64,000 nt of DNA, from positions 186,001 to 250,000 of the forward strand of contig NZ_BJKB01000004.1 of NCBI RefSeq assembly GCF_010725055.1, in the 5' to 3' direction. The notes beneath the pieces are model-generated. The model saw nothing but the letters and a program-made list of their open reading frames with translations. It ran no database searches and was not told the DNA's origin. The position numbers were made by a program, and so were the translations under genes. Shown in pieces: positions 4,455 to 9,380 of this stretch. This DNA comes from Gelidibacter japonicus. Lineage in GTDB: Bacteria > Bacteroidota > Bacteroidia > Flavobacteriales > Flavobacteriaceae. Position 1 is the stretch's first letter, and every line of letters starts with the position of its first letter.

Positions 4455-5447
4455 TTATCTATTCAAAAGTCGGACGACATCCTTCGCAAAGTATGAGGCA
4501 ATCACGTCGGCTCCAGCGCGTTTTATGGCAGTAATTTGTTCCATCATCACGGCGTCATGGTTTAACCAACCCTTTTCAGCTGCTGCTTTCAACATGGCAT
4601 ATTCTCCAGAAACTTGATACACTGCAACCGGAACATCTACGGCGTTTTTGATTTCGCGTACAATATCCAAATAGCACAATCCAGGTTTGATCATGACCAT
4701 ATCCGCCCCTTCATCTATATCCATTTCAGTTTCCCTGAGCGCTTCAATACGGTTACCGTAATCCATTTGATAGGTAGCTTTGTCTTTGGGTATATTTTTC
4801 ATATCCACTGGCGCAGAATCCAAGGCATCTCGGAAAGGCCCGTAAAATGCAGAGGCATATTTAGCCGAATAGCTCATAATACCAGTGTCAGTAAAACCTT
4901 CATCTTCCAAAGCCTCGCGAATTGCTAAAATCCGACCGTCCATCATATCGCTTGGAGCTACAAAATCGGCACCAGCCTGAGCATGGGATACGCTCATTTC
5001 AGCTAAGAGATCTACAGATTCATCGTTTAAGATCATGCCATTCTGTACGATGCCGTCATGTCCATAAGCGGAATACGGATCAAAGGCAACATCAGTCATG
5101 ACCAACATATCTGGACAGGCATTTTTAACTGTTTTAATGGCGCGTTGCATCAATCCGTTAGCGTTGATAGCTTCTTTGCCTTTATTGTCCTTTAAATTAT
5201 CAGGAACTTTCACAAAAAGCAAAACCGATTTTAAGCCCATGTTCCATAATTCTTTCACTTCCTTTTCTAATAGATCCAAACTATAGCGGAAGTAATTTGG
5301 CATGGAAGTGATTTCTTCTTTGACATTCTTGCCTTCTACGACAAAAAGCGGCACTAAAAAATCGTTGGGTGAAATGATCGTCTCTCTTACCATTGAACGA
5401 ATGGCTTCGTTAGCTCTTAATCTTCTATTTCTTCTTAATGGGTACAT
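4455..5447 (-). CDS. hemB: Delta-aminolevulinic acid dehydratase (porphobilinogen synthase)
   Basis: This enzyme condenses two 5-aminolevulinate molecules into porphobilinogen, the second committed step of tetrapyrrole synthesis. It has the normal length (330 aa). The two active-site lysines lie in YSAKYASAFYGPFRDA and in MVMIKPGLCYLDIV. The metal loop reads DVAFDPYSAYGHDG, so the cysteines of zinc-type enzymes are absent; this indicates a magnesium-dependent, zinc-independent HemB. It is the last gene of the leftward hem run, 55 bases after hemF. Confidence 0.97.
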   Translation of the reverse strand: MYPLRRNRRLRANEAIRSMVRETIISPNDFLVPLFVVEGKNVKEEITSMPNYFRYSLDLLEKEVKELWNMGLKSVLLFVKVPDNLKDNKGKEAINANGLMQRAIKTVKNACPDMLVMTDVAFDPYSAYGHDGIVQNGMILNDESVDLLAEMSVSHAQAGADFVAPSDMMDGRILAIREALEDEGFTDTGIMSYSAKYASAFYGPFRDALDSAPVDMKNIPKDKATYQMDYGNRIEALRETEMDIDEGADMVMIKPGLCYLDIVREIKNAVDVPVAVYQVSGEYAMLKAAAEKGWLNHDAVMMEQITAIKRAGADVIASYFAKDVVRLLNR

Positions 5448-5502: not shown

Positions 5503-6981
5503 TTATTGTGACATCCAATCTACAGGATGTTTTAATACTTCTAATAATCGGTCTTCTTCGCTTCCCTTTTCGGGATGATGATCGTACACCCATTGCACAT
5601 GCGGTGGCAGACTCATCAAGATACTTTCAATGCGACCGTTGGTTTTCAATCCAAATAAAGTGCCTTTGTCGTGCACCAAATTGAATTCGACATAGCGGCC
5701 ACGGCGGATTTCTTGCCACTTGCGATGCTCATCGGTATAAGTCAAGTCCTTTCGTTTTTCTACAATGGGCACATAACCCTCCAGAAAACTATCACCAACG
5801 TCGGTTACAAAATTGTACCAATCGTCCATAGACATGTCTTCATTGGATTTGCAATAGTCAAAAAACAAACCACCAACGCCACGGGCTTCATTGCGGTGTG
5901 AATTCCAAAAATACTCGTCGCATCTCTTTTTGTAAAGCTCATAAAAATCAGGATGATGCTTATCGCATGCCAATCTACAGATCTGATGAAAATGGATGGC
6001 ATCTTCGTCAAACAAATAGTAAGGCGTCAAATCCTGTCCGCCTCCAAACCATGAATCGACGATATTCCCCTGTTGATCATACATTTCAAAATAGCGCCAA
6101 TTGGCATGGACGGTCGGTACCATTGGGTTTGTTGGATGGAGCACCAAACTCAAACCACAAGCAAAGAAATTGGCATCTTTAACGCCAAAATACTGCTGCA
6201 TGCTTTCTGGTAATTCGCCATGAACGGCGGAAATATTGACACCTCCTTTTTCAAAAACTTTACCGTTCTCAATCACTCGTGTGCGTCCGCCGCCACCTTC
6301 CGGACGTTCCCAAAGGTCTTCCTGAAACTTGGCTATGCCATCTATAGCTTCAAGTTTTGAAGTGATGGTGTCTTGGAGATTGAGAATGTAATTGTAGAAT
6401 TTGTTTTTGATGGAAAGACCTGTCAGGTTTTTAAAACCTGACAGGTCTGAACTTTGAAGTTTTGTATGATTATGCACAAAAGTAAAATTCTCTAAATCGG
6501 CGAATAAATTTATGACGTAGTTTTTTTTGTTTGAAATAAGGCTTTTTTCATCTTGAATGAAATGATTGAAGGATGAAAATGGATACTCCCAAAAATTCTG
6601 TACCACTCCATGATTTTCTGGGTTTTTATGGATATATAATATGAGGCTTTTTAGATACTCTTCATCTTTTATAGCCATTCTTTTGAACGATCTTTCAAAT
6701 AGAGTTCCTGTTCTTGAATTTTGCTTATTAAATGCTTTTGAATAGGCGTTGAATAAGTTTGAAAAAGCTTGTGAAGCCTCCTTTTCATCTGAAATTATTT
6801 GAACTGCCATATGAAAATGATTATTCATTAAGCAATAGCAAAGAACCTCCACTTTTGACGCTAAATGTTTGTCAATTAATTTGAGGAAATATTGCATATT
6901 ATCTTCATTTTTAAAAAGAAGCTCACTGTTTATACCTCGATTAAAAATGTGATAATAATGTCCTTTTTTTAGTGTTTCCAT
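5503..6981 (-). CDS. hemF: RAYT transposase fused in frame to coproporphyrinogen III oxidase (HemF)
   Basis: One uninterrupted 492-residue frame contains two unrelated proteins. Residues 1-177 are a complete REP-associated Y1 transposase (TnpA_REP): HUH motif His55-Phe-His57 within NNHFHM, candidate catalytic Tyr80, then GTLFER and YIHKNPENHG. Residues 190-492 are a full-length oxygen-dependent HemF, which turns coproporphyrinogen III into protoporphyrinogen IX; FQEDLWERPEGGGGRTRVIE and GGGQDLTPYYLFDEDAIHFH are typical. The linker at about residues 178-189 is encoded by a REP palindrome. HemF proteins normally begin just before the KNKFYNYI segment, but the codon there is CTT rather than ATG, so HemF's own start appears lost. 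It may be made as a fusion or from a non-AUG start inside the linker. Confidence 0.9.
   Translation of the reverse strand: METLKKGHYYHIFNRGINSELLFKNEDNMQYFLKLIDKHLASKVEVLCYCLMNNHFHMAVQIISDEKEASQAFSNLFNAYSKAFNKQNSRTGTLFERSFKRMAIKDEEYLKSLILYIHKNPENHGVVQNFWEYPFSSFNHFIQDEKSLISNKKNYVINLFADLENFTFVHNHTKLQSSDLSGFKNLTGLSIKNKFYNYILNLQDTITSKLEAIDGIAKFQEDLWERPEGGGGRTRVIENGKVFEKGGVNISAVHGELPESMQQYFGVKDANFFACGLSLVLHPTNPMVPTVHANWRYFEMYDQQGNIVDSWFGGGQDLTPYYLFDEDAIHFHQICRLACDKHHPDFYELYKKRCDEYFWNSHRNEARGVGGLFFDYCKSNEDMSMDDWYNFVTDVGDSFLEGYVPIVEKRKDLTYTDEHRKWQEIRRGRYVEFNLVHDKGTLFGLKTNGRIESILMSLPPHVQWVYDHHPEKGSEEDRLLEVLKHPVDWMSQ
6416..6448. repeat. REP palindrome inside the RAYT-hemF frame
   Basis: This 33-base near-perfect palindrome has 16-bp arms and a one-base centre. 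It is translated as the linker between the transposase and HemF (about residues 178-189). It could form a strong hairpin in the mRNA immediately before the HemF coding part. Confidence 0.9.
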
Positions 6982-6989
6982 TTTAGTTT

Positions 6990-7544
6990 TTAGATCTTAT
7001 CAGACCTGACAGGTCTCGAAAATTCAAAAAGTTCCATATCCAAAGGTGTTTCATTCAAAGGTTTGAACTCATCTTTTAAAGTGCCTTGCCATTTAAAACC
7101 CGAGCGTAAAGCCGTATTCACGCTGGACAAATTGGTTTTGTGTGCAAGGATTTGAAAAGTTTCCAATCCCAAGGTTTCAATGGCATAGTTGGAGGTTGCC
7201 TTAATAGCTTTACTCATCAAAGCTTTGCCTTTAAAGCGTTTGCCAATGCAATAAGCGAATTCACCTTGTTTAATTTCCCAATCCAAATTCTTTAAAATGA
7301 TCATTCCAATGATATCATTACTGTTCTTATCGTGAATGATAAATACAAATTCTTTTCGATGTTTAGCAGACTTAATTTTTCGTTTGATATAGGTCCGAGT
7401 ACTATCTAAGGTGGTGTTTTCTTCCAAGGTTTTTGGAAGAAACCGGATAAATCGTTCAGTATTGGAAACCAGTAATTTATTCAGCTGTAGGGCATCCTTG
7501 GGCTGTAATAAAGAAATACTGATATCGTCTGAACTATAAATCAT
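6990..7544 (-). CDS. GNAT family N-acetyltransferase (RimJ/RimL-like)
   Basis: This is a 184-residue acetyltransferase of the type that acetylates protein N-termini or small molecules with acetyl-CoA. The acetyl-CoA binding region is seen around GEFAYCIGKRFKGKALMSKA (motif A). It is followed by ATSNYAIETLGLETFQILAHKTN and NTALRSGFKWQGTLKDE, the usual C-terminal signature of the RimJ/L branch. The gene overlaps the end of the upstream EI24 gene by 11 bases, so they are translationally coupled. Its last eight or so codons (RPVRSDKI) come from the REP copy at 7002-7016, so the natural C-terminus was probably changed when the RAYT element arrived. The substrate is unknown. Confidence 0.88.
   Translation of the reverse strand: MIYSSDDISISLLQPKDALQLNKLLVSNTERFIRFLPKTLEENTTLDSTRTYIKRKIKSAKHRKEFVFIIHDKNSNDIIGMIILKNLDWEIKQGEFAYCIGKRFKGKALMSKAIKATSNYAIETLGLETFQILAHKTNLSSVNTALRSGFKWQGTLKDEFKPLNETPLDMELFEFSRPVRSDKI
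7002..7016. repeat. REP palindrome at the end of the GNAT gene
   Basis: AGACCTGACAGGTCT is a perfect palindrome with 7-bp arms and a single central base. It belongs to the same family as the copies at 6416-6448 and 8307-8339 and marks the upstream side of the RAYT element. Confidence 0.85.
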
Positions 7545-8348: not shown

Positions 8349-9380
8349 TTAGTTTGGGCTCTTATATTCTTTTACCGCATCAATAAATGCCTTGGCGTTA
8401 TCCAAAGGAATATTCGGTAAAATGCCATGACCTAAATTTACGATATATTTATCTTTACCAAACTCGTCGATCATCTGTTTTACCATTTTTTTGATTTCTG
8501 CAGGTGGTGAAAACAATCTGGAAGGATCAAAATTACCTTGTAACGTAATATTTCCCCCCGTCAAATAACGCGCATTTCTTGGAGAACAGGTCCAATCAAC
8601 ACCAATAGCCGTAGCATTTGATTTAGCCATGTCGCCTAAGGCAAACCAACAACCTTTGCCAAAAGCGATCACCGGTGCATGATCTTTCAGGGCTTCAATA
8701 ATCTGATTGATATATTGCCATGAAAACTCGTGATAATCGGATGGTGCTAACATGCCACCCCAAGAATCGAAGATTTGTACGGCATCACATCCAGCAGCTA
8801 CTTTTGCCTTTAAATAAGTAATGGTAGTGTCGGTTATTTTTTGCAATAATTGGTGTGCGGCAATAGGATTTGTAAAGCAAAACTGTTTTGCTTTATCAAA
8901 ATTTTTGCTGCCTTGCCCTTGCACGCAATAACATAAAATCGTCCAAGGTGATCCTGCAAAACCAATTAATGGCACCTCGTTGTCAAGCATGTCTTTGGTC
9001 ATTTTAATGGCCTGCATGACATAGTCCAATTCAATATGTATATCCGGAACAATAACATTGTCCACATCTTTTTGTGTGCGTATCGGGTTGGGCAAATAGG
9101 GTCCAAAATCGGGTTTCATTTGCACTTCAATATTCATGGCTTGTGGAATGACCAAAATATCACTGAATAAAATGGCCGCATCCATTCCGTAACGACGGAT
9201 GGGCTGTACGGTAATTTCACTCGCCAACTCTGGAGTTCGACAACGTGTAAAAAAGTCGTATTTGGCTTTTATTTCTTGAAACTCCGGCAAGTAACGTCCG
9301 GCTTGACGCATCATCCATACTGGTGGACGGTCAACAGTTTCTCCCTTTAATGCTCTTAAGTATAAATCGTTTTTTATCAT
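8349..9380 (-). CDS. hemE: Uroporphyrinogen decarboxylase
   Basis: This enzyme removes four carboxyl groups from uroporphyrinogen III to give coproporphyrinogen III. The N-terminal signature [16 protein letters not shown] (residues 18-33) contains the substrate-binding arginines. [20 protein letters not shown] is the second family signature. The length of 343 residues is normal. It lies between hemC-D upstream, across a gap with two hairpin repeats, and the EI24 gene downstream. Confidence 0.97.

Follow-up and report, generated by a model that had tools for sequence, protein, structure and literature searches.

The closest described relatives of the element studied here are the RAYT or TnpA-REP transposases (REPtron), HUH Y1 enzymes linked to REPs that were reportedly treated by Bertels and co-workers in 2017, and whose long-term persistence, at low copy number and without obvious benefit, is an open question. 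Joined transposase and host domains are also known from animal host-transposase fusions, in which both parts are selected; these arise by splicing and mostly involve regulatory domains. The link between RAYTs, as HUH Y1 transposases, and REPs is treated in three papers (PMC2817692, PMC6006769, PMC8266576), one of which describes RAYTs as domesticated HUH transposases (PMC8266576). For TnpA-REP, PMC6006769 gives a motif of the type Y-x-x-x-N-P with the catalytic tyrosine; the same paper left out a few proteins of unexpected length that stemmed from fused genes or faulty annotation. RAYTs as domesticated transposases and REPs inside tnpA-REP genes are already known.

Here we describe a RAYT joined in frame, through a REP palindrome, to the heme enzyme HemF (oxygen-dependent coproporphyrinogen III oxidase). 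The window, by which we mean the whole stretch of DNA that was analysed, comprises 64,000 nucleotides of Gelidibacter japonicus (genome G000; assembly 99.98% complete). With the known RAYTs, this locus shares the NHxH and YxHxNP core, cognate REPs both at the gene and genome-wide, and a patchy occurrence across species. It differs in that the RAYT makes up the N-terminus of a housekeeping enzyme, to which it gives the start codon, in that the 3' REP is coding, and in that all finds of this lineage are in the hem operon. Subclass 2.4 of TnpA-REP also has a REP within the tnpA-REP reading frame and Bacteroidetes hosts; there, however, as described in PMC6006769 (section 23), the REP lies inside tnpA-REP and no host gene is involved, whereas in the present case it connects RAYT and HemF. 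On the enzyme side, the whole catalytic domain is present as in HemF (PDB 1txn, 2aex and others), with essentially the full Pfam profile, but it follows some 190 residues of transposase and linker, while unfused relatives begin with their own ATG or TTG. As in the animal fusions, a transposase domain is joined to a host protein domain and both appear to be kept by selection; unlike them, the present fusion arose in bacteria by in-frame insertion, at the beginning of a metabolic gene that is essential.

Searches of open-licence PubMed Central, at the level of titles and abstract openings, found no description of a RAYT-HemF fusion. Here a mobile element has replaced the start codon of an essential gene, apparently more than once, and possible intermediates exist in living relatives (adjacent, fused with ATG, and fused without ATG). 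A RAYT lineage turned into the start of an essential gene would also offer a concrete and testable answer, for one case, to the question of RAYT persistence. On the practical side, the annotation of HemF or its assigned start may be wrong in about 4% of the Flavobacteriaceae genomes sampled (at least 17 of 397).

The Fused Frame and Its Neighbors

The fused RAYT-REP-HemF frame occupies positions 5503..6981 of the window on the minus strand, beginning with an ATG at 6981 and encoding 492 amino acids without an internal stop. Residues 1-170 (6472..6981, minus strand) form the RAYT (TnpA-REP) domain, with NHFH at residues 54-57 and YIHKNP at 116-121; the latter includes the catalytic tyrosine, identified by the Y motif tabulated in PMC6006769. 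The Pfam model Y1_Tnp matched residues 7-119 with 23.1 bits (cut-off 23), and NCBIfam REP_Tyr_transpos reached 58.5 bits, short of the 80 that its cut-off asks for. The HemF part (5503..6411, minus strand, including the stop codon) scored 440.8 bits with Pfam Coprogen_oxidas, over the cut-off (residues 195-489; profile positions 2-295 of 295), and 416.9 bits with the NCBIfam model for oxygen-dependent coproporphyrinogen oxidase (cut-off 297). Between the two parts lies a perfect REP palindrome with 16-bp arms and a 1-nt loop (6416..6448), translated in frame as ..DLSGFKNLTG... A preliminary description had claimed a complete RAYT and a full-length HemF in one open frame with a REP palindrome as linker, and these matches and coordinates bear it out. 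It was also right that the ATG of HemF is lost, but the codon that stands in its place is ATC (Ile191; 6409..6411, minus strand, read from 6411 to 6409) and not CTT, which is found two codons before it, where the REP has its edge. An AlphaFold model (8 sequences) had a mean pLDDT of 58, a low confidence, and was left out of all conclusions.

The fused frame belongs to a run of genes on the same strand. Upstream are a GNAT acetyltransferase gene (6990..7544, minus strand), which directly precedes the insertion, an EI24/CysZ-like gene and hemE (8349..9380, minus strand); hemB (4455..5447, minus strand) flanks the frame downstream. A half REP (7004..7016) is located 5' of the RAYT start and codes at the same time for part of the altered C-terminus of GNAT. 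Across positions 6990-7030, this half REP provides the GNAT gene with a new end (..RPVRSDKI), so that both genes bordering the insertion have REP-encoded ends.

One HemF per genome was found in all 25 genomes with an inspected fused frame, and the genome of the window has a single PF01218 match. A profile search of the latter, the one genome covered for HemN, yielded no second hemF or hemN; its sole HemN_C (PF06969) match is HemW (271.9 bits, cut-off 205), with 139.5 bits against the HemN model (cut-off 325). That HemF is the only aerobic coproporphyrinogen oxidase of the cell, at first a supposition, agrees with this search. Directly downstream of the heme chaperone gene hemW, another RAYT is present on the same strand (G000:C1:485295-488495; L027:754-1371 and 1462-2628, both on the minus strand).

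Occurrence in Gelidibacter and Flavobacteriaceae

Within the genus, four of nine genomes carry the fused frame, among them G. maritimus (88%) and G. gilvus (83%). In these four, the RAYT lies between GNAT and hemF, and the ATG has been replaced by ACC in three and by ATC in the window. The other five (G001, G004, G006-G008) have no RAYT; at the junction, which the preliminary description had singled out for comparison among relatives, they have the ATG of hemF, with no insert, overlapping the end of the GNAT gene. In G. maritimus (G003), the stretch separating GNAT from the fused gene also contains an N-terminal piece of a RAYT (L029:3023-3124), left behind by an earlier or a second insertion.

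Spanning matches to a RAYT-linker-HemF model were obtained in at least 18 of 397 Flavobacteriaceae genomes. Seventeen of them are one frame, and the eighteenth (G219) has a RAYT and hemF side by side in separate frames. At least 17 of the 397 sampled genomes are fused, each from a different genus (17 of 237 genera); this count is a lower bound, as the search scored the top candidates per genome only. A second genus has the fusion in 6 of 12 species, and a total of 25 fused frames were inspected (20 in a first set and 5 more from the second genus). Outside the family, a search of 395 Bacteroidia genomes at an E limit of 1e-30 gave no whole-model match, the only two hits (G000 and G132) both being Flavobacteriaceae. 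The fusion thus recurs patchily across the family, a recurrence that the single-event view of the preliminary description had understated.

Sequencing or assembly error, earlier named as a possible refutation, can be set aside as practically negligible. Nothing was found in its favour, and the identical fused arrangement is present in 25 genomes. We rule out an assembly error because the fused frame recurs in other genomes, including five single-contig assemblies (G132, G164, G175, G254 and G352).

The Start Codon of HemF

At the position of the HemF start, the 25 fused genes have ATC (9), ACC (4), ATA (2), TTT (1), CTC (1), GTC (1) or ATG (7), a start codon being absent in 18 of them. Among 56 unfused hemF genes, a non-random set made up of the best HemF matches and of genus mates of fused species, 49 have ATG at the site, 4 have TTG and 3 have an ATG two to four codons upstream; the four RAYT-adjacent hemF genes inspected all have ATG. 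Neither ATG, GTG nor TTG occurs within 10 codons of the HemF start in 17 of 25 fused genes, as compared to 0 of 60 others. When independent pairs on the HemF tree were compared for fusion and start loss, the reverse association never appeared, with only five pairs available and a median p of 0.125.

The cells of most fused species apparently make HemF only as the tail of a transposase. The preliminary description had left the choice between such a chimera and a start inside the palindrome; the chimera is preferred, and the internal start is disfavoured by the absence of any ATG, GTG or TTG from the 10 codons around the HemF start in 17 of 25 genes.

A wider form of the second option is that HemF has a translation start of its own, a non-canonical one (ATC, GTG or TTG) that lies at the junction or some way ahead of it, and that the open frame is incidental. 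Eleven of the 18 start-less genes have ATC or ATA in this position; the ATC of the window is a possible weak near-cognate start, and a GTG is located 22 codons upstream of it. In the remaining 7 of 18, however, the codon is ACC, TTT, CTC or GTC, and since these are not even near-cognate, we rejected a near-cognate start as a general solution. Farther upstream, an in-frame ATG, GTG or TTG is found within 45 codons in 12 of the 15 start-less genes of the first set; start-less genes other than that of the window have an upstream in-frame TTG or GTG, in several cases at the Leu of the RAYT's DLENF, where TTG recurs in several species. Yet no upstream alternative is common to all, and the window has TTA at that Leu. 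The nearest upstream in-frame ATG is at least 89 codons away in 12 of 15 start-less genes, and 20, 27 and 49 codons away in the rest.

A separate HemF could nevertheless be made in some species, since 7 of the 25 fused genes keep the ATG and another (G043) has a GTG two codons upstream of the HemF position. The context of the kept ATGs is less favourable to such a product: A at -3, which favours initiation in F. johnsoniae (PMC6847099), was found in 0 of 5 such genes in the first 20, as compared to 30 of 48 unfused genes, a small sample, and in one (G789) of the two fused genes with ATG that were added later. Predicted pairing between -20 and +20 was 0.35 in start-less fused genes, 0.56 in fused genes with ATG and 0.44 in unfused genes. 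The hairpin thus does not seem to bury the start site, given that pairing is not higher in start-less than in unfused genes, and occlusion of the junction by the REP has no clear support from these values; an accessible site would suit a separate start. On the other hand, an incidental frame is hard to reconcile with the distance from the RAYT end to HemF, which ranges from 96 to 204 nt in the first 20 fused genes and is open throughout. Taking these points together, we regard separate translation of HemF as improbable, and favor its production as part of the fused protein.

Conservation of the RAYT Part

The NHxH motif (HUH metal-binding; NHFH in the window) is present in 24 of 25 fused RAYTs, the catalytic Tyr in all 25, and the full YxHxNP (YIHKNP in the window) in 24. 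The RAYT of G214 has NS in place of NP. In G141 (L101), NQFH replaces NHxH with loss of the first His, and the metal site has probably been lost, to judge by this motif; the frame is open and the HemF ATG is kept.

Between G000 and G003, dN/dS is 0.071 for the RAYT part and 0.052 for HemF. Over the 190 pairs of the first 20 fused genes, median pN/pS is 0.344 for the RAYT, whose synonymous sites are partly saturated, and 0.165 for HemF. RAYT dN/dS in the second genus lies at 0.07-0.20 in the unsaturated pairs (10 of 15). By these ratios, purifying selection acts on the RAYT part. Matches to free RAYTs contain 3 stops in G001 and 4-10 stops in G007; other free RAYTs are open.

It could be argued that the RAYT part is a mere leader, open for the sake of HemF and with a sequence that is itself functionless. 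A nonsense mutation would hurt HemF regardless of any role of the RAYT, and G141 does carry NQFH rather than NHxH. But a leader of this kind would be expected to drift or shrink, whereas RAYT dN/dS is near 0.07-0.2, the catalytic motifs are retained in 24 of 25 genes and the linker has its REP palindrome in 18 of 20. We therefore consider a functionless leader quite improbable, and prefer to see the RAYT part as presumably still active. The preliminary description spoke of RAYT domestication or capture of an essential gene's start. Capture is upheld by the present results; domestication for a host function is not established, because a still-active RAYT would show purifying selection as well.

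Origin and Spread of the Fusion

A tree of 60 RAYTs separated the 20 fused, 4 adjacent and 5 further RAYTs from 31 others (branch 100/98). All 29 members of the clade are located in the hem operon: 25 are fused to hemF or end at most about 300 nt before it, 2 lie between hemE and hemF, and 2 directly before hemE. Among the 31 other RAYTs, none is in a frame of more than 223 codons, and the 8 that were checked have no hem neighbors. A general habit of RAYTs to fuse was rejected, as all 31 others are in frames of at most 223 codons.

We also considered a single ancient fusion in the ancestor of the family, with vertical descent and many losses. The placement of the hem-operon RAYTs on one side of a well-supported branch (100/98) and their conserved operon position would suit such a history, and the AU test does not reject the four fused Gelidibacter RAYTs as one clade (p 0.186). 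Against it, the HemF tree of 75 rows, many of whose branches are weak, has fused genes at scattered positions; it takes 15 changes to account for the fused state, and supported branches force at least 8 of these. The fused RAYTs alone are rejected as a clade (p 0.002), and for the 25 genomes in common, the RAYT topology and the HemF topology are each rejected by the other (p-AU 3e-56 and 3e-4). Of 20 hemF regions fetched as possible remnants or neighbors, 18 have no RAYT remnant (tblastn, E 1e-3), and the other two (G134, G145) carry an open RAYT gene; decay from one ancestral fusion was rejected on this count. Partial upstream matches in some unfused genomes did not prove to be RAYT remnants in the cases checked. 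RAYT dS is, moreover, lower than HemF dS in some pairs (0.37 as compared to 0.83 between G254 and G794).

A different RAYT between near-identical flanks also speaks against descent from one fusion. G002 and G005 are alike in the GNAT flank (identity 0.87) and in HemF (0.85-0.91), but only 0.50-0.62 identical in the RAYT, which indicates that G005 carries another RAYT cassette. This swap rests on the identity profile and the tree position, because the AU test leaves the Gelidibacter clade unrejected. Overall, we regard the single ancient fusion as unlikely. Given the discordance between RAYT and HemF, the case of G005 and the dS values of G254 and G794, the cassette at the hemF site seems to move or to be replaced independently of HemF.

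Our best reading is that a RAYT lineage of the hem operon has several times taken over the start of the essential gene hemF and has mostly replaced it. The lineage resides in the hem operon of Flavobacteriaceae, mostly directly 5' of hemF and usually between its own REPs. Because the 3' REP has no stop in the frame used, the RAYT frame reads through it into hemF. Ribosomes initiating at the RAYT ATG would then yield HemF as the C-terminal portion of a RAYT-REP-HemF protein, which we infer to be both the translated form and the working HemF. With HemF supplied in this way, the internal start would have become dispensable, and mutation has removed it in most lineages (18 of 25), the fusion presumably coming first and the start loss second. 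After this loss, an obvious start codon for the sole aerobic coproporphyrinogen oxidase would be offered by the RAYT alone, and a stop or frameshift in the RAYT would for this reason abolish heme synthesis too. The RAYT would thus be shielded from decay, with its catalytic core and cognate REP mostly kept. We consider this account as a whole, from fusion by read-through of the REP to loss of the HemF start and a RAYT tied to heme synthesis, to be probable.

A further idea, which we offer tentatively and hold to be somewhat doubtful, is that of a homing-like, addictive transposase, in which a RAYT lineage specialised on the 5' end of hemF would move as a RAYT-plus-REP cassette between the hemF loci of species, land in frame and become indispensable through decay of the start that hemF itself had. 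If this were so, the REP palindrome would be at once DNA target and translated linker, and hemF would be hostage to the transposase frame.

REP Palindromes at the Locus and Genome-Wide

Of the first 20 fused genes, 18 have in their coding linker a palindrome of 25-35 nt that is perfect or nearly so, the exceptions being G175 and G332. In 12 of 15 start-less genes, the linker palindrome ends at most 31 nt from the HemF codon or enters it. REPs 5' of the RAYT, whole or half, are present in 17 of 20, usually of the same type as the linker REP. REP cores vary by lineage (CTGTCAGG, CTGCAAGG, CCCACCGGG and others). The genome of the window contains 18 REP half-sites, 3 of them at the fused locus; a reversed control gave 0.

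We compared half-site numbers between fused species and their congeners. For ACCTGACAGGTC, the pairs were 44-0, 45-0, 5-0, 4-0, 37-5, 9-0, 2-1, 0-0, 0-0 and 1-5, with the second species of the 37-5 pair carrying an adjacent RAYT, and with the counts including the hemF locus (3 of 5 sites in G160, all 4 in G391). This half-site is commoner in the fused species in 7 of 10 genus pairs, equal in 2 and fewer in 1; excluding the sites at the hemF locus, it is commoner in 6 of 10. In Gelidibacter, the fused genomes have 19, 2, 17 and 11 copies, as compared to 1, 7, 0, 1 and 0 in the unfused ones. A counter-example is the unfused G216, with 50 copies, whose single listed match is its HemF; here, the RAYT has possibly been lost recently.

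The half-site ACCTTGCAGGTC occurs at 7-0, 5-0 and 2-2 in the genus pairs with a fused member of that type (G164, G141 and G139, respectively), and at 7 in G005 as compared to 0-3 in other Gelidibacter. Elsewhere its numbers are low except in G219, which has 16, mostly at its own locus. The G219 half-sites closely precede the adjacent RAYT and are arranged in tandem, with a period of about 160 bases (G219:C11:235597-236273). Finally, four fused HemF (L063, L099, L100 and L101) have differing in-frame inserts of about 7-15 residues at one site near ..YFEMY, for example PSTPLRAGEPRE. All four carriers have the CTGCAAGG-like REP type, and the inserts look like another repeat that landed in coding sequence.
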